Assembly (NCBI GenBank): GCA_902827205.1
Contig: LR792634.1
Location: 310,001-374,000 of the forward strand
Direction: 5' to 3'
DNA from: Methanocaldococcus lauensis
Lineage (GTDB): Archaea; AGJL01; Methanococci; Methanococcales; Methanocaldococcaceae
Length of the DNA: 64,000 bases
Shown here: positions 8,200-59,211 of the stretch, piece after piece
How positions within the stretch are numbered: the stretch's first letter is position 1
Layout of the letters: every line of letters starts with the position of its first letter
The notes under the pieces: model-generated
Seen by the model: the letters and a program-made list of their open reading frames with translations, nothing else
Told to the model about the DNA's origin: nothing
The model's database searches: none
Translations under genes and position numbers: made by a program

Positions 8200-8660
8200 A
8201 GTAATTTATATTGTTTTTATATTTTAGGTCATTTATATATATCTTTGGTTATATCTGTCTATATAATGTAAAATAATTTATGCTTTTTGATAATCTTCCC
8301 TCGCTAAAAATTTTTATTTTTTAATTTAGGGGATTTTAATTTAATATTTTTAAATTTTAAAAGATTTTATTAAATTTCGGAGGGTCGTCTATTTTGATTA
8401 ATTTGAGTATTTGGTTTTATTAAATTATTGAGATTTTTAGGAGATTTTGGTAGTTTATTTTTATCTCTAATTTTCCCCGATAAAAAGGTTGATATTAAAA
8501 ATTTAAAGGATTTTTAAGCAAATAAATAAAAATAGAAAAGTTTATATATAAGTTCGGAGGTATATAAATAACAAGGGTTACTGACCCTCCAAACTATAAC
8601 CCCCTAACAAAGAAGCATAATAAAGTAATTTTAAAAGTTTATTTCTTCAAATTATGCCCT
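8200..8660 (+). promoter_or_regulatory. CRISPR leader and array promoter
   Basis: About 460 bp of very AT-rich non-coding DNA end directly at the first CRISPR repeat. A TATA box (TTTATATATAAG) lies near 8538-8550, placing transcription start about 90 bp before the first repeat. A small inverted repeat (CGGAGG near 8553, CCTCC near 8586) sits downstream. The same TATA-AGTTCG-AG-TAT-AAATAA arrangement recurs at 42.5 kb. The terminal repeat at the opposite end of the array is degenerate, which confirms that this side is the leader. Confidence 0.8.
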
Positions 8661-8759
8661 GTCTAAAATCAGACCCCCAAGGGGATGGAAACGCAAAGGA
8701 AGGTCCTCTAAGCCGACTCGATGAAGTGTCTAAAATCAGACCCCCAAGGGGATGGAAAC

Positions 8760-9997
8760 GTAAAACCTAAAAAATGGGAGTTTGTTGGTTTGGTTGATGT
8801 CTAAAATCAGACCCCCAAGGGGATGGAAACGTTTTTTCTACAACTCTTATTTTACCTCCCGCTTCACTGTCTAAAATCAGACCCCCAAGGGGATGGAAAC
8901 CACCAATGCAAACATTTATTTTATTATCAAAATTGTCTAAAATCAGACCCCCAAGGGGATGGAAACATAATTTTAAAAGTAGTTTTTGTTTATCTGACAA
9001 ATGTCTAAAATCAGACCCCCAAGGGGATGGAAACTTCTGGGTCTGGTTTATTCTTACAAGGAGTGATGATGATTGTCTAAAATCAGACCCCCAAGGGGAT
9101 GGAAACCCTCCATTTTTTTATTTTTTTACAGTAAATAAAATAGCATTTGTCTAAAATCAGACCCCCAAGGGGATGGAAACGCCTATGTTCCTATTAGTGT
9201 GAGTAATCCCCAAAATATAATTGTCTAAAATCAGACCCCCAAGGGGATGGAAACTGAAAGTGAATGGAAAATTGTTAAAAATAATAATCAAGTCTAAAAT
9301 CAGACCCCCAAGGGGATGGAAACAAATGCTTTAACAATGCTTGAGAAACTGAAAGAAGATGAGGTCTAAAATCAGACCCCCAAGGGGATGGAAACACACT
9401 TGGAGTAGTAAATGTTGGAGTAGTTATTTGCTGGTCTAAAATCAGACCCCCAAGGGGATGGAAACGTAAAACCTAAAAAATGGGAGTTTGTTGGTTTGGT
9501 TGATGTCTAAAATCAGACCCCCAAGGGGATGGAAACGTTTTTTCTACAACTCTTATTTTACCTCCCGCTTCACTGTCTAAAATCAGACCCCCAAGGGGAT
9601 GGAAACCACCAATGCAAACATTTATTTTATTATCAAAATTGTCTAAAATCAGACCCCCAAGGGGATGGAAACATAATTTTAAAAGTAGTTTTTGTTTATC
9701 TGACAAATGTCTAAAATCAGACCCCCAAGGGGATGGAAACTTCTGGGTCTGGTTTATTCTTACAAGGAGTGATGATGATTGTCTAAAATCAGACCCCCAA
9801 GGGGATGGAAACCCTCCATTTTTTTATTTTTTTACAGTAAATAAAATAGCATTTGTCTAAAATCAGACCCCCAAGGGGATGGAAACGCCTATGTTCCTAT
9901 TAGTGTGAGTAATCCCCAAAATATAATTGTCTAAAATCAGACCCCCAAGGGGATGGAAACTGAAAGTGAATGGAAAATTGTTAAAAATAATAATCAA
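8760..9997 (+). repeat. Tandem duplication of an eight-spacer CRISPR block
   Basis: Spacers 2-9 (8760-9291) reappear in the same order as spacers 12-19 (9466-9997), offset by exactly 706 bp, with the intervening repeats also identical. Two unique spacers (9324-9363 and 9396-9433) complete the 706-bp unit. The order and identity of eight spacers point to recombination between repeats rather than independent acquisition. Confidence 0.97.
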
Positions 9998-10029
9998 GTC
10001 TAAAATCAGACCCCCAAGGGGATGGAAAC

Positions 10030-10286
10030 ATACTAATGAAGCTAATAAACTTAGTGTTAGACAAACATAGGTCTAAAATCAGACCCCCAAGGGGATGGAA
10101 ACAATAACAATATGACAATAGCAATAAGGAGGGGATATGTCTAAAATCAGACCCCCAAGGGGATGGAAACAGAATTAAATATACCAACATGGTTAGCATG
10201 GGTTCTTTATCAAGTCTAAAATCAGACCCCCAAGGGGATGGAAACATACTAATGAAGCTAATAAACTTAGTGTTAGACAAACATAG
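10030..10286 (+). repeat. Second duplicated CRISPR spacer (20 = 23)
   Basis: The 41-bp spacer at 10030-10070 recurs exactly at 10246-10286, 216 bp apart, with spacers 21 and 22 between. It lies just outside the 706-bp duplication and so records a separate event. Confidence 0.96.
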
Positions 10287-10601
10287 GTCTAAAATCAGAC
10301 CCCCAAGGGGATGGAAACGGATATTCAGCATCTTTTTTTAATAATTCCAATGGCATCTCGTCTAAAATCAGACCCCCAAGGGGATGGAAACAAATGTTAG
10401 AACTAAACCAATGTGGGCTTTAGGAACAGTCTAAAATCAGACCCCCAAGGGGATGGAAACGATAAATTATGCTGTAATTTTAAAATGCTGGATTTTAAAC
10501 AGGTCTAAAATCAGACCCCCAAGGGGATGGAAACAGCGCGCTGAACTTTAAAAAATATCTTCATCTTCTGTCTAAAATCAGACCCCTAAGGGGATGGAAA
10601 T

Positions 10602-10790
10602 CAAATAAATCTATTAATGTCTATATTTGTCTATGAAAAATTAAACAGTTTTAAACGGCTACATTTACTATTTTAGATACTAAATAAATTTTTTAAGCGA
10701 GAATAATAAATTTAATAGTAAGTTTAATAAATAATAATAAACAAGTGAAAATGAATAATTTAAGTTTATCTAAATGTTACGGTGGTTATT
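10602..10790. other. Intergenic region after the CRISPR array
   Basis: AT-rich DNA between the terminal repeat and the next gene. It includes a motif at 10619-10659 (GTCTATATTT ... CAGTTTTAAACGG) that recurs at 36411-36440. The rest probably carries the promoter of the downstream gene, whose GGTGGTT ribosome binding site ends the region. Confidence 0.5.
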
Positions 10791-11917: not shown

Positions 11918-12020
11918 ATGCAAATATATGTATATGCAAAATCATTATCGAAAGATTTAGATGTAAGTATGTATAAGAAATAAAAATTATATGCCCAGAT
12001 GTGGGAGAAAAATGGAGTCC
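11918..12020 (+). pseudogene. Gene relic with TnpB-like zinc-finger remnant
   Basis: A short ORF (MQIYVYAKSLSKDLDVSMYK, 11918-11983) has a good AGGTGAAA ribosome binding site but stops after 21 codons. Directly after it, 11993-12015 resembles a frameshifted zinc finger (C-P-R-C-G-R-K-M-E-S if one base is restored). A similar stretch is found on the minus strand at about 35850-35890. I read this as the fused debris of a lost gene and a transposon-type TnpB/OrfB C-terminus. The family call is tentative. Confidence 0.4.
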
Positions 12021-12069
12021 CTAATAGTTATTATCTAATTTAACCAGGATAACTTCCAAGTCCATTTTC

Positions 12070-34980: not shown

Positions 34981-35739
34981 TTATTCTATGATTGCATGTT
35001 TTAGAGCTTCTTTACATATGCAGTTTCTTTCTCCAAAATCGTAATTTATAAATTCTTCAACAACTTTTAAAATTTTGTCCTCCATTTCTTTTATAGTTTT
35101 TAAAACTTCATCAACAGTTAAAATATTCTTTGAGATTCCGCAAGCATAGTTTGTAATATTACACAGAGATACATAACATATTTCTAACTCTCTAGCTAAG
35201 ACAACTTCTGGATAGCCAGTCATTCCCACGACATCTCCCCAATTTTTGTAAATCTCTATTTCTTTCTTAGTTTCAAATCTTGGCCCTTCTGTGCAAACAT
35301 AGACTCCTTCTCCATAGGCGAAATTATTTTTATTTAGAATATCTTTTAAAATTTTTCTAAGTTCTGGGCAATATGGCTCTGTCATATCTATATGAACTAC
35401 TTTTCCCTCGTCATAAAAAGTTTCCTCTCTTTTCTTTGTAAATTCAATAAAATCATTTGGAATAAAAAACATTCCAGGCTTTAACTCTTCTTTTAAAGAA
35501 CCTACAGAGTTTATAGCTAAAATTCTCTCAACACCTAATTTTTTTAATGCATAGATGTTTGCTCTATAATTTACCTTATGTGGAGGAGTATTATGATTAG
35601 CTCCATGTCTAAATAATAGAATTACATCTCTTTCTTTATCAAACATAATTTTTGCCTTTCCATATTTAGTTTCTATTATCTCTTCTTTGTCTCCCTTTAA
35701 TATACTACTAATTCCAGTACCTCCAATTATACCAATCAC
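34981..35739 (-). CDS. Methylthioinosine/methylthioadenosine phosphorylase family
   Basis: A 252-residue purine nucleoside phosphorylase of the MTAP type. GIIGGTGISSIL at the N-terminus, FRHGANHNTPPHKVNYRANIYAL (phosphate and purine loop), TEGPRFETKKEI and VGMTGYPEVVLARELEICY are the family blocks. In M. jannaschii the orthologue is reported to act on methylthioinosine in methionine-salvage by way of hypoxanthine. GTG start after GGTGAT. Confidence 0.88.
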   Translation of the reverse strand: MIGIIGGTGISSILKGDKEEIIETKYGKAKIMFDKERDVILLFRHGANHNTPPHKVNYRANIYALKKLGVERILAINSVGSLKEELKPGMFFIPNDFIEFTKKREETFYDEGKVVHIDMTEPYCPELRKILKDILNKNNFAYGEGVYVCTEGPRFETKKEIEIYKNWGDVVGMTGYPEVVLARELEICYVSLCNITNYACGISKNILTVDEVLKTIKEMEDKILKVVEEFINYDFGERNCICKEALKHAIIE

Positions 35740-35814
35740 TATATCACCATTTAAATTATTTATTAATTACTAAAAATTAATGGAATTCTCCCGATATAGG
35801 TAATATATAGGCGA

Positions 35815-36021
35815 TTATAGACTACTTTTTACAATTTGGACAATAAACGACATGTCTCTTTTAGGACTCCATTTTACTCCCGCATATGGGACAGGTTGTT
35901 GAAGTATAGGCAGATTAACTAAAATCGTTATCGTTTTATAACTAATTTTTTGTATTATTTCATTCATCTTATAAATTTCTTCGTCAGAATGTTCCTTCTT
36001 TAAATATTCTATTTTTTCCAT
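35815..36021 (-). pseudogene. Chimeric ORF: Lhr N-terminus fused to transposase-like debris
   Basis: The frame begins with the start and first 18 codons of the Lhr helicase gene (MEKIEYLKKEHSDEEIYK), including its ribosome binding site, then diverges. Further on, another frame reads YTSTTCPICGSKMES-stop-KRHVVYCPNCKK, a four-cysteine finger like those ending TnpB/OrfB proteins, broken by one stop. So two relics are spliced here. It is unlikely to make a functional protein. Confidence 0.6.
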
Positions 36022-36096
36022 AGTTATCCCAAAAAGTATTATAATATTCTATATCTTCCCGGCTTTGGTTCGTCAATATCTCCATACTTAACTAAT
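35966..36096 (-). repeat. 131-bp perfect copy of the MCM/Lhr gene junction
   Basis: Base-for-base identical to 57129-57259, at a constant offset of 21163 bp. It covers the last codons of the MCM gene with its stop (36039-36096), the 17-bp gap, and the first codons of the Lhr gene (35966-36021). The similarity ends abruptly at both sides. Confidence 0.95.
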
Positions 36097-36467
36097 CAAT
36101 TAGCCCTATCTAACTTTCGATTGAAATATCTATTTTTATACATTTTTCGTTTATTCAATTTTTCTATCATAACTCTCCTTAATTCTGTGTAATTCAAATT
36201 AATCTATTTATTATCCATCCTTCAATTGAATGACATATATTGATAGATATTAAGTTGCTATCAATCGTTTTTAATGTTTAATACTAAAATTTGTTTCTTA
36301 AATTTCTTTTGAATTCATTTGATTTCGGTAGTTTTAGTTTGTTTTTTAATCCATTCAATATGTATTCTATGATAAAACATTTTGATAATTCAATACATAT
36401 TTAAATACTTGTCTATATTTAATTAATCAGTTTTAAACGGTAGAAGACTGTCATCTATACTCTTCCT

Positions 36468-37652
36468 TTACATTTTTCTCTTTTTATTCTTTTTGGGTTT
36501 CTTTTTACCCTTAATTTTTTTATTCTTTTTCTTTTCTTTAACTTTCTTTTTTTTCTTTGGTTTAGGATACTTTCTCTTTATTTCTTCAACTCTCTTATTT
36601 AATTTCTCCAACAATTCATCAGCTATATAATCTCCAACATAATCTCCTCTTGCCGCTATTGCCAACTTACATGCCAAAGCCCTCGCTATCTTACCTCTCT
36701 GCCATGGAGGAGAACCTTTAATTAAAGGATGATTAAATATAATTCCATGCTTTGGTGGAGTTGCTTTATTTCTCAAATGTGCAAACAACGCCTTTTCAGC
36801 ACCTAAAACTTGTATAGTTGAGGCAGGCATCTTAGATAACTTTTCCAAACCTCCCGCCAATCCTATTAATTTTGCCCCCAAAGAAACGCCAGCGAGTTTT
36901 GTAATATTTGGACATTCCTCAGTCATCAATTTCTCTAAGTATTCATAAAGTTCTTTTCTCTTTTCATATAGATGATTAATTTCCTCAGCAAATTTACCTA
37001 TTACATCTAAATCGTAATCTTCCAACTCTCCACCCATTGAATTTTTTGCCGCTTCTGCTATTTTTTCAGCCAACTTTGATGGTAGTATCTTTTTTAATTG
37101 GCTCTTTGTAAAGTTCTCTCTCTTTTTTAACTTTGCTACTAAAGAGGCATAAACCTCGTGCTTACTAACTAAGTGGTCTAACTCTGGGAAGTATAAGGAA
37201 TACCACTCCCTTAATCTTTCTGAAAGTAAATTTAATGTCTTGTCTAAATCAGATATAGCCTCAGCGACTTGAATAATTATTTTATCTTTCTGTTGAGTAT
37301 AACTTTTTATAAGTTTTTTTGTTACTTCTGTATTCCAATAGTGCATTTTATTTTTAAAATTCTCATAATCTTTAAAGTATTCCAACTCCTTACCAATTTC
37401 AAATAAATTATTTCTCAAATACTCTCCAATTTTGAATGGCTCAACGCTTAAAATTTCTAACTTAACTTCATCATTCCACTCTTCTTTTAGATCATCCGCC
37501 ATTTTATTTGGATTAGTTCTTAATAAAAACAGTATTTCTGGAATTTCTTTCTCATCAAATAATTTTTTATATTCAATGTCATCTAAACTATTAACTTCCT
37601 TGTTATCTTTAACTCCAAACGCACCATAAGGAGTAAATGCTACATATATCAA
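36468..37652 (-). CDS. Nop5/Nop56-like C/D box sRNP protein
   Basis: A 394-residue archaeal Nop5. The N-terminal fibrillarin-binding domain (1-115), a coiled coil (about 120-250) and the NOP domain follow in order. The NOP domain shows AGLEKLSKMPASTIQVLGAE-type sequence and HPLIKGSPPWQRGKIARALA. The tail is a lysine-rich low-complexity stretch of about 40 residues. It bridges L7Ae and fibrillarin on 2'-O-methylation guides. The start is TTG with GGAGGGAT. Fibrillarin is not in the window. Confidence 0.93.
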   Translation of the reverse strand: MIYVAFTPYGAFGVKDNKEVNSLDDIEYKKLFDEKEIPEILFLLRTNPNKMADDLKEEWNDEVKLEILSVEPFKIGEYLRNNLFEIGKELEYFKDYENFKNKMHYWNTEVTKKLIKSYTQQKDKIIIQVAEAISDLDKTLNLLSERLREWYSLYFPELDHLVSKHEVYASLVAKLKKRENFTKSQLKKILPSKLAEKIAEAAKNSMGGELEDYDLDVIGKFAEEINHLYEKRKELYEYLEKLMTEECPNITKLAGVSLGAKLIGLAGGLEKLSKMPASTIQVLGAEKALFAHLRNKATPPKHGIIFNHPLIKGSPPWQRGKIARALACKLAIAARGDYVGDYIADELLEKLNKRVEEIKRKYPKPKKKKKVKEKKKNKKIKGKKKPKKNKKRKM

Positions 37653-54655: not shown

Positions 54656-57184
54656 TTATTCCTCTTTTTTATTTCCCTTGATAAACTCCATAACTCTTTT
54701 ATGTAATTCCATAATCATCCTTCTCTTATCTTCCATAAATATAACATCCGATGAAGCAAATACTATTAAATTAAATGCAAATGGAGAAGGAGTTGGTAAT
54801 TTTAAATAATATATTTTTCTCTTTTTTATTTTTTCAAAATAATTTAAGGCATTCTCAATGTCTAAAGAATCCTCTAAAATCTCCCGAATTGTTTCTCTAT
54901 ATAGAGGATGATTAACCTCTTTACAGTATTTTAAAAGCATCTCAGCATTAAATTGTTGTTTATCCACACTAATCTTCTTATTCATATATCTTCGTAAAAT
55001 CATAAAGCCCCTTGTAGCAACATGTCTAAATCTTCTCTTTATAATATCACTTCTCTCAATAGATTCCCTAATATTTTTAATAATGTCTATATTTAATAAT
55101 TCCACAATATCAGATTTTGTTATCTTTCTATTTTTTGGAAGTATCAAAGCAAATCCATAGTCATTTACTGATATTCTTACATTACAATTTTTAATTTTAG
55201 AGATGTAATTGGCAAAAGCTCTTGCTAATGCCTCATTAGCCCTCCTTCCTGCAACAAAGTGGAATATATAATATCTTCGCTTCTCTTCATCAAAATTTTC
55301 TATTAAAACTTTCTCATCGTCAGGAACAATTGCATACTTATTTTGCTCTTCTATGTAGTTTTTTACAGCCTTAGATGTTTTTTCATCAATATCATACTTA
55401 TTTTTAATATCCTCAACTTCTTTATGTAAAACTTCTTTTCTAAATTTTTCTATATCTAAGGCTAAATCATAAGCAAGTGGCAACTGTTCAGAAAACCACG
55501 CTGGAATTGTTGGATTTTCATTGAACACCTCTTTAACTAAGATTTTATTTCCTCTACTACCTAAATACTTGTAGGTTTTTCCTCCTAAAACAAATATATC
55601 TCCCTTCATCAACTTTTCAGCAAACTCTTCCTCAACCTCACCAACATATCTTTTTCCATCATAGACAGATATAGATGTCTCATCAGGAATTGTTCCAACA
55701 TTCATATAGTAAATTGCTCTAACATTTTTTCCTCTCTTACCAAATTTGTTATCTTTTAACCATATTTTAGCATAAACCTTTTTTTCTTCAATACTTCCAG
55801 ATAAGTATCTTAAAACATCTAAGAAATCTTCTTTACTTAAATCTTTATATGGATATGCTCTTTTAATTAAATTATATGCTTCATCAACATCCCAAACTTT
55901 TTCCAAAGCCATTCCCACAATATGTTGTGCCAATACATCTAAACAGTTCTTTGGAATGTGTATCTTATCAATTTTACCAATTTTAGCATCATAAGCTAAT
56001 ACAACATTTTCAACTAAATCATCTCTATCAAAAGGAATAATAATTCCCTTACTCTTTTCGTGAAGTTTATGCCCACTTCTTCCAATTCTTTGTAAAGCCC
56101 TCGAAACACTCTTTGGAGAACCTAAGAGAATAACTAAGTCAATACTCCCTATATCAATTCCCAACTCTAAGGATGTTGAGCTAATAACACACGACAGTTC
56201 TCCTTTTTTTAATTTTTCTTCAACCATTAATCGATGTTCTCTACTTAAAGAAGAATGATGTGTCTCAATATTCTTTATACCCATCTTTTTTAAATGAAAT
56301 GCCACTCTTTCAGTTGCGCTCCTTGTATTTGTAAATATTAAAACTGTTTTATGCTCTTCAATAAGTTTTTTTAATAAATTGTATAATCTTTTACTAATCT
56401 CTTCAGAAGGAGTATATACAAAGTCATCAACTGGCGATAAAACTTTTATTTCCATATCTTTTTTATAACTTACATCTACAATGTAACAATCTCTTCCATT
56501 ACCTACTAAAAATTTGGCAACTTCTGTTAAAGGATGAATTGTTGCAGATAACCCAATTCTTATAAAGTTTGCTATTCTATTTAACCTCTCTAAGGATATA
56601 GAAAGATGAACTCCTCTCTTATTGGTTAATGCATGAATTTCATCAACTATAACATATTTAATTCCTTCCAATAACTTAGAAAATTTTGGAGAGCATAAAG
56701 ATATTGCCAAAGATTCTGGAGTGGTTATCAATATATGAGGTGGTTTTTTTAACATCCTTTGCTTTTGCGAACTCGTAGTATCACTCGTTCTTACAGCCAC
56801 TCTAATCTCATCCAACTCAATTCCTAATTCTTTAGATACTTCGTAAATCTCCTTTAATGGTTCCTTTAAATTTCTTTCAATGTCGTTATTTAAAGCTCTC
56901 AAAGGAGAAACATAAAGAATATAAATCCTATCCTCTAACTTTTTTTCCATAGATAATTTTATCAATTCATTAATCCCTGCTAAAAAAGCAGATAATGTTT
57001 TTCCACTTCCAGTTGGTGAGCAAATTAAAATATTTTTTCCTTCATGTATTTCCTTAATTGCATATCTTTGTGGAGGAGTAAAAGTTTTATATTTTCTTCT
57101 AAACCATTCTTTTACTGGTTTTTCTAAAATCTTATAAATTTCTTCGTCAGAATGTTCCTTCTTTAAATATTCTATTTTTTCCAT
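54656..57184 (-). CDS. Lhr-family superfamily-2 helicase
   Basis: An 842-residue helicase. Walker A CSPTGSGKTLSAF (about 54-66), DEIH box VIVDEIHALTNKRG, motif III GLSATIHP, motif V region SSTSLELGIDIG and motif VI RALQRIGRSGH are clear. The C-terminal third is the Lhr-core winged-helix/beta-barrel region. Lhr proteins unwind DNA and RNA-DNA hybrids in repair. Its first 18 codons are duplicated at 35966-36021. It starts 17 bp after the MCM gene end. Confidence 0.9.
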   Translation of the reverse strand: MEKIEYLKKEHSDEEIYKILEKPVKEWFRRKYKTFTPPQRYAIKEIHEGKNILICSPTGSGKTLSAFLAGINELIKLSMEKKLEDRIYILYVSPLRALNNDIERNLKEPLKEIYEVSKELGIELDEIRVAVRTSDTTSSQKQRMLKKPPHILITTPESLAISLCSPKFSKLLEGIKYVIVDEIHALTNKRGVHLSISLERLNRIANFIRIGLSATIHPLTEVAKFLVGNGRDCYIVDVSYKKDMEIKVLSPVDDFVYTPSEEISKRLYNLLKKLIEEHKTVLIFTNTRSATERVAFHLKKMGIKNIETHHSSLSREHRLMVEEKLKKGELSCVISSTSLELGIDIGSIDLVILLGSPKSVSRALQRIGRSGHKLHEKSKGIIIPFDRDDLVENVVLAYDAKIGKIDKIHIPKNCLDVLAQHIVGMALEKVWDVDEAYNLIKRAYPYKDLSKEDFLDVLRYLSGSIEEKKVYAKIWLKDNKFGKRGKNVRAIYYMNVGTIPDETSISVYDGKRYVGEVEEEFAEKLMKGDIFVLGGKTYKYLGSRGNKILVKEVFNENPTIPAWFSEQLPLAYDLALDIEKFRKEVLHKEVEDIKNKYDIDEKTSKAVKNYIEEQNKYAIVPDDEKVLIENFDEEKRRYYIFHFVAGRRANEALARAFANYISKIKNCNVRISVNDYGFALILPKNRKITKSDIVELLNIDIIKNIRESIERSDIIKRRFRHVATRGFMILRRYMNKKISVDKQQFNAEMLLKYCKEVNHPLYRETIREILEDSLDIENALNYFEKIKKRKIYYLKLPTPSPFAFNLIVFASSDVIFMEDKRRMIMELHKRVMEFIKGNKKEE

Positions 57185-57259
57185 AGTTATCCCAAAAAGT
57201 ATTATAATATTCTATATCTTCCCGGCTTTGGTTCGTCAATATCTCCATACTTAACTAAT
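57129..57259 (-). repeat. Source copy of the 131-bp duplicated MCM/Lhr junction
   Basis: This intact gene junction matches 35966-36096 perfectly. Because both flanking genes are whole here, this copy is presumably the original. Confidence 0.9.
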
Positions 57260-59211
57260 TTTTTAATAATATTTTCCAATTCATTCTCTTTAATTCCTTT
57301 CTTTTTTGCCTCCTCAGCAATATCAACATACTCAACGAGCTCTGATTTCTCTGCCAATTCTTTAATTATTTCATATACAACAATTAATTTATCTCTTTCT
57401 TTCTTAGAAACTCCCAATATTTTATCAACATCAAATATTCCTGTCTCTGGGTCATAGGCAATTTCTTTTAGGCATTCAGTGATAATATTTATTGCCTCTT
57501 TGGCATCTTCCTCATCAACGACATCCTTTAACTTCGCCTTTGCATGAGCTTCAGCAATTCTTATAACAGATTCCAACTGTCTTGCAGTTATTTGGTGCTT
57601 TTTTCTCATTTCAACATAGTAATTAATAAATAATTCTTTGGCTCTTTCGCTAATTACTGGCTTTTTCTGCCTTGCGTAGTAAATGTATTTTATTATAAAC
57701 TCCTTGTCAATCTTTACGCCATCAACTTCTAAATAATTTAGCCCTATCTTTTTATTTATATTGTCATCTAAATAAGCCCTATGTAAGTCAATAATATATT
57801 CTGCAATGTCTCTATCTTTATTCTTATCAGAAACATCTCTAATTGGAAATATTAAGTCAAATCTACTTAATAATGGAGCAGGAATGTTTATCTGCTCAGC
57901 TACAGAAACTTCTGGATTAAATCTACCCCATCTTGGATTACATGCTGCCAATATTGCACATTCAGCTGGTAGTTTAGCATTAATTCCTCCTTTACTAATA
58001 TGAATTGTTTGACTTTCCATTGCCTCTAAGATATAACTTTGCAAATCTTTATTAACAGTTAATTCATCAATACAGGCAGTTCCCTTATGTGCCTTAACCA
58101 ATAACCCTGGTTTTATAACCCATGTATCTTCTCCAATTTCAGTTTTTTCCCTGACTACTGCGGCAGTTAAACCAACACCAGTTGCAGTAGTAACTGAACC
58201 ATACAAATTACCGGGAATTTCAGCAATTTTTCTTAAAATTACTGTCTTCCCAATACCTGGATCAGTAATTAAAAGTATATGAATATCCGCCCTCTTACCT
58301 GGTTTTTTCACTCCCTTTATTTGTTGCAAAAATACAGCTTTTTTTATTGCCGAATGTCCCCTAATTTCAGGAATTAATCTATCAGCCAATATATCAATGA
58401 TATCCTGCCTTTTAGCTAATTTTTTAATATTTTCAATATCTGAATTAGTTAATTTAATTTTAACATCTCCATCTAAGACTTCACAATGTATTGCCTTAAC
58501 ATAAATTTCATATATAGGAAGTTTTTTGCTCTTTCTAATTTTTATTGGAACGCCAGTTATTTTAACTCTTCCAGCATACACTCCTGAACTGTTCTCTAAA
58601 AACACGGTTACATACTTTGGAGGTTCTTCTGGATTTTCCATTAAATCCAAAGGTTGCTGAACTTTTATTTCTTGGAAGTCAGTATATGTCGATTTATCTT
58701 CAATTAAATTTAATTCCGAGCCACATTCACATACAGATTTTTCACTCTCAAAATTCAAAATATCTATCTCCTTATAATATTCTCTTCCACATTTTGGACA
58801 TATATAATAGGCATATTTTAGCATTGGTCTAATTTTTGATGCCATTACTATGATTCCTTCAAATTCTACTAACTTTCCTAAGGTATTGCTTCTAATATCC
58901 TCTATTGTGAAAATCTTCCCTTTCCTTGTAGTTTTAAAAATTTTTGGTAAATTCCTTACTGAAACTATTATGTTTTTTGGATATTCGTTTCTTAAAGTGT
59001 AGTATGCCTCATAGTAACACTCTTTTATAAATCTAATTCCCTCTTCAGGATTATCTACTAAAAACTCTACAAATTCCATTAATCCATATTCATAAAGTTT
59101 ATTTAAATCAATTACAATTTTTTCACTGTCTAATATAATATCCTCTTGGTGAATATTCCTTAAATATGCAACTAAATAGTCTTTAAATTCTTCTAATGTT
59201 TCCATATCCAT
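57202..59211 (-). CDS. mcm: Minichromosome maintenance (MCM) helicase paralogue
   Basis: A 669-residue MCM. The N-terminal part holds a zinc ribbon (CPKCGREYYKE ... CECGSE, about 142-170). The AAA+ core has Walker A TDPGIGKT (usual GDPGxAKS), Walker B GTACIDELTVNK (usual CIDEFDKM), sensor-1 LAACNPRWGRFNP and arginine finger LLSRFDLIFPI. The C-terminus is a winged helix (about 590-669). No intein. Methanocaldococcus carries several MCMs; the altered Walker motifs suggest this is not the main replicative one. Confidence 0.88.
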   Translation of the reverse strand: MDMETLEEFKDYLVAYLRNIHQEDIILDSEKIVIDLNKLYEYGLMEFVEFLVDNPEEGIRFIKECYYEAYYTLRNEYPKNIIVSVRNLPKIFKTTRKGKIFTIEDIRSNTLGKLVEFEGIIVMASKIRPMLKYAYYICPKCGREYYKEIDILNFESEKSVCECGSELNLIEDKSTYTDFQEIKVQQPLDLMENPEEPPKYVTVFLENSSGVYAGRVKITGVPIKIRKSKKLPIYEIYVKAIHCEVLDGDVKIKLTNSDIENIKKLAKRQDIIDILADRLIPEIRGHSAIKKAVFLQQIKGVKKPGKRADIHILLITDPGIGKTVILRKIAEIPGNLYGSVTTATGVGLTAAVVREKTEIGEDTWVIKPGLLVKAHKGTACIDELTVNKDLQSYILEAMESQTIHISKGGINAKLPAECAILAACNPRWGRFNPEVSVAEQINIPAPLLSRFDLIFPIRDVSDKNKDRDIAEYIIDLHRAYLDDNINKKIGLNYLEVDGVKIDKEFIIKYIYYARQKKPVISERAKELFINYYVEMRKKHQITARQLESVIRIAEAHAKAKLKDVVDEEDAKEAINIITECLKEIAYDPETGIFDVDKILGVSKKERDKLIVVYEIIKELAEKSELVEYVDIAEEAKKKGIKENELENIIKKLVKYGDIDEPKPGRYRIL

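Follow-up and report, generated by a model that had tools for sequence, protein, structure and literature searches.

A 131-bp copy of the MCM-lhr junction in a tnpB relic beside nop5 of Methanocaldococcus lauensis, most likely a recent repair scar

Human TSIPs of the class 2 templated sequence insertions carry marks of non-homologous end joining (NHEJ), e.g., microhomology, microdeletion or added bases, and were proposed to be RNA-derived (PMC5110952). Among archaea, the primase PriSL of Saccharolobus islandicus is described to promote the joining of ends that share very short homologies (PMC12019639), and Ku-independent joining via MMEJ is described for Haloferax (PMC7776575). A further relevant system are tnpB relics of the IS200/IS605 type together with their short non-autonomous derivatives.

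The window analysed here is a stretch of 64,000 bp (positions 310,001-374,000) of the single-contig, 1,479,331-bp chromosome of the heat-loving methanogen Methanocaldococcus lauensis (genome G000; completeness 99.4%). Positions 35966-36096 beside nop5 are identical over 131 bp to positions 57129-57259, in direct orientation and with starts 21,163 bp apart. The repeat comprises 56 nt from the beginning of lhr with its start codon, the intergenic gap of 17 bp, and 58 nt from the end of MCM with its stop codon. The original prediction of a perfect direct repeat about 21 kb apart, spanning the end of MCM, the gap and the start of Lhr, thus held with exact coordinates in a one-contig genome, and Pfam matches identify the two source genes as MCM and Lhr. 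The features of both sites are as follows:

34981..35739, minus strand: phosphorylase-superfamily gene (PF01048), neighbour of the relic on the side away from nop5
35785..35965, minus strand: 3' part of the tnpB relic, to the left of the insert, its zinc-ribbon region decayed; 87% identity to tnpB at G000:735 kb and 98% to the G000:577 kb relic
35815..36021, minus strand: accidental chimeric 68-aa ORF, 18 lhr codons with start region plus tnpB remnant (start at 36021, end calculated from 68 codons)
35966..36096, minus strand (sense in which the copied genes are coded): 131-bp patch inserted into the relic, identical to the MCM-lhr junction; absent at nop5 in G005, in the long G005 relic at 1077 kb and in tnpB at G000:735 kb
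36097..36437, minus strand: 5' part of the tnpB relic, to the right of the insert and with several deletions inside it; matches tnpB at G000:735 kb
36468..37652, minus strand: nop5 (PF01798, PF21667), neighbour of the relic on its upstream side with respect to transcription
54656..57184, minus strand: lhr helicase gene (PF19306, PF08494), donor of 56 nt
57129..57259, minus strand: donor (lhr start, 17-bp gap, MCM end); single and in place in G005, G009 and G010
57202..59211, minus strand: MCM helicase gene (PF00493, PF17207), donor of 58 nt

Exactly two full copies of the 131 bp are present in the whole genome, no further ones were found in 14 Methanocaldococcus genomes (own included), and a 52-bp stretch of it has no exact counterpart in viral contigs. 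The exact match is not due to chance. A third genomic match at 425,031 (75% over 70 bp) looks like an AT-rich chance match. In the 464 kb around the window (31% of the genome), exact dispersed repeats longer than 45 bp are otherwise confined to CRISPR-associated blocks (the CRISPR repeats together with blocks that resemble leaders or lie at array ends) and to a single pair of paralogous genes.

As a separate observation, the CRISPR array at 8660-10540 of the window (repeat GTCTAAAATCAGACCCCCAAGGGGATGGAAAC) contains an exact internal 597-bp duplication (at 8728 and 9434), representing duplicated spacers. Blocks of up to 271 bp are identical beside CRISPR arrays at about 8300-8680 of the window and at G000:137.0, 258.0 and 291.9 kb, and are probably shared leaders.

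The nop5-side copy resides within a decayed tnpB (IS200/IS605-type OrfB) relic at 35785-36437, a host site missed in the original prediction; the 728 bp that separate nop5 from the phosphorylase-superfamily gene are therefore relic-bearing rather than a plain spacer. The assignment is based on alignment to the tnpB at G000:735 kb, an ORF of 383 aa that matches PF07282 and PF01385 (Cas12f1-like_TNB, OrfB_IS605) and thereby connects the host site to OrfB_IS605 with its zinc ribbon. Most pieces of the right relic part share 82-89% identity with this tnpB (77% in case of one piece), and its first 210 bp are 94% identical to G005:1077453-1077662. Several internal pieces of tnpB are missing from the nop5 relic. 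A plasmid origin was considered and rejected, since a distant search with the whole site yielded only an 85-bp stretch annotated as zinc-ribbon protein on a Methanocaldococcus plasmid. Elsewhere, short copies at 10607-10660 and 12003-12050 of the window share 44-45 bp with G000:475.3-475.5 kb and match in part the end of the nop5 relic (CAGTTTTAAAC); they probably represent other tnpB-type relics.

Two forms without the 131 bp define the insertion point. The long relic at G005:1077 kb reads TTTCATTC directly followed by CAATTAGCCC (join CATTC^CAATTA), and in case of the tnpB at G000:735 kb the two halves likewise meet directly, GCTATTC being followed by CAATTACTCC. In the window, the 131 bp fall exactly between the halves joined in these two forms. 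Since both join without the fragment, the 131 bp are, by comparison with an empty state taken from other loci, a clean insertion into the tnpB relic. The nop5 relic of G005 itself is a compact form without the segment corresponding to 35968-36306, the pre-insertion state of the nop5 site thus being deduced from another locus. Relative to this empty site, no target sequence was lost, none was added and no target-site duplication was formed. Junction microhomology amounts to 0 bp on both sides of the insert, which is unusual compared to the microhomology-mediated end joining known from archaea.

The direction and age of copying follow from the donor sequences. G005, which belongs to the same species, contains only one copy of the 131-bp sequence, located at MCM/lhr, and the search of relatives proposed in the original prediction accordingly retrieved a nop5 site without insert in this strain. 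Of the 131 donor positions, 3 distinguish G000 from G005; since G009 and G010 carry the G005 base at each of them, the changes arose on the G000 branch. The nop5-side copy shares the G000 state in all three cases and was therefore copied from the MCM-lhr junction after G000 and G005 had diverged, barring later conversion that removed an older state. The original prediction had explained the perfect identity either by a very recent event or by conversion: recent copying agrees with the single copy in G005 and the three derived donor bases, whereas conversion is not needed to explain the 131 bp.

Like class 2 templated sequence insertions, the insert is a short patch from a distant locus without target-site duplication or poly(A), and it is polymorphic between strains as class 2 insertions are between individuals (PMC5110952). 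Its donor is intact, still in place here and in three relatives. Unlike class 2 insertions, the junctions are clean, lacking end-joining marks, and neither Ku nor reverse transcriptase was detected. A blunt join is conceivable, and the insert is described as working like a class 2 templated insertion, but since positive end-joining marks are missing it is not filed as one. With Saccharolobus (PMC12019639) and Haloferax (PMC7776575) it shares the joining of breaks with little homology in Ku-less archaea; the products reported there are mainly 1-2 bp indels or deletions, unlike the 131-bp ectopic patch, and the consulted parts of these reports contain no description of a patch of about this size. 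In case of the IS200/IS605-type relics, the host site is itself such a relic and compact copies occur at orthologous places, whereas the 131-bp piece has no transposon features.

The relics also exchange sequence with each other. The relic locus at G005:1077 kb is orthologous to that at G000:577 kb, with flanks of 98-99% identity over about 1.9 kb on each side. Here, G000 has the compact form (577158-577460) and G005 the long one (1077320-1077843), the reverse of the situation at nop5; each strain thus has the compact form at the locus where the other has the long one, and its junction is almost identical in both. Alignment of the four relics (two loci in two strains, insert removed) revealed 15 columns that agree within a strain and differ between strains, and only 2 locus-specific positions inside the relic (36341 and 36411), while the outer flanks follow the locus, i.e., are orthologous. 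The largest concerted block (36371-36388) corresponds to a different tnpB deletion junction in each strain and represents an indel-level marker. In sequence comparison, the relics at nop5 and 577 kb, 231 kb apart, therefore bear the signature of ectopic recombination or conversion. The diagnostic pattern of ectopic gene conversion, within-genome copies more alike than orthologues in orthologous flanks, was found for the two relic loci and for two roadblock/LC7-like genes (named from reading the sequence, not from a family search). The latter (G000:110809-111159 and 421329-421679) are identical over 351 bp at a distance of 310 kb, with unrelated flanks, and share G000-specific bases, indicating concerted evolution by ectopic exchange as in the relics.

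Sequence comparison establishes that the host is a relic, where the fragment entered it cleanly, which locus donated it and that this happened recently, and the patch is observed in the assembly. The nop5-side copy is quite probably a patch insertion that sealed a break in the old tnpB relic with a fragment of MCM-lhr. A double-strand break in the relic would have started the event; the 131-bp piece from 21 kb away would have been provided as a captured fragment or by short templated synthesis, and then joined to the relic ends without homology. Joining might have proceeded via an alternative end-joining route, e.g., with primase/polymerase and ligase, which is invoked since Ku (PF02735) was not detected in the genome and classical NHEJ thus finds no counterpart. 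Nor were the Y1 transposase TnpA (PF01797) and reverse transcriptase detected in the genome. Together, these negative results speak against classical NHEJ, transposition of the IS200 type and capture of cDNA; an RNA-templated origin of the 131 bp was rejected since no reverse transcriptase was detected. Recombinational repair, by contrast, is demonstrably at work at the nop5 site, since the relics exchange sequence ectopically.

Other explanations fit less well. That an older duplication was held identical by ongoing gene conversion between both 131-bp copies appears improbable. Ectopic conversion does occur in this lineage, and the nop5 relic of G005 lacks the relevant part, so it offers no direct proof that an older insert was missing. 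However, the only comparable long relic in G005 carries no insert, some 3.4 differences are to be expected if no conversion occurred, the probability of seeing none being about 0.03, so that this reading depends on conversion of a tract as short as 131 bp, whereas a recent insertion requires one event. Another alternative is a sub-form of the repair explanation that relies on homologous exchange, namely a template switch during ectopic recombination of two tnpB relics, the invading strand copying 131 bp of MCM-lhr and then returning. The strain-specific exchange seen in the relics would suit such an event, but template switching normally leaves microhomology, which both junctions lack, and we regard it as decidedly improbable.

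An assembly or library artefact is very improbable, since the genome forms one contig of high completeness, and a repeat collapse or mis-join does not usually take the form required here, with two new junctions and 131 bp added to a relic that is intact in other respects. Hardly credible is the placement of the 131 bp by a mobile element or their retention for a function, be it as regulatory DNA or via the chimeric ORF. In its favour one might cite that the 131 bp lie in a transposon relic and supply the start region of lhr, whereby the 68-aa ORF is opened, but the piece has no element ends, repeats, target duplication or other copies, is absent from G005, and the nop5-side site has no Rfam match to a structured RNA. 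IS200/IS605 transposition as the cause was specifically rejected, there being neither a Y1 transposase nor repeats at the insert ends. Nothing suggests expression or retention of the 68-aa ORF. The nop5-side copy thus needs no function as explanation and looks like a repair scar rather than a functional element.

The two-copy direct repeat may represent a putative recombination substrate. The deletion or circularisation of the intervening 21-kb segment envisaged in the original prediction finds no support: the segment holds nop5, tiaS, rpiA, the gene for McrA-glycine thioamidation and that for mevalonate kinase, and with nop5, tiaS, rpiA and mevalonate kinase on it, its loss should be lethal.

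The 131-bp length lies within the range of archaeal Okazaki fragments, which provides a lead rather than a test. One may speculate, quite tentatively and against the odds, that Ku-less hyperthermophilic archaea seal breaks with a preformed duplex of about Okazaki length by blunt, homology-free joins, which would constitute a datable class of ectopic patches not described for archaea in the literature searched; judged by titles and abstracts, none of the papers found in a search on templated insertion at archaeal double-strand breaks concerns such patches in archaea.

The nop5-side copy most likely represents a repair scar of an ordinary kind, though dated unusually well, within the transposon relic, and it leaves ideas about the functions of MCM, Lhr and nop5 as they were. 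Little is known about how breaks are repaired in Ku-less archaea once homologous repair has failed, and a recent, base-exact patch with known donor, inferred empty site and polarised dating offers a clean natural example. The surrounding relics document, as a second and independent case, ectopic exchange over a distance of 231 kb.
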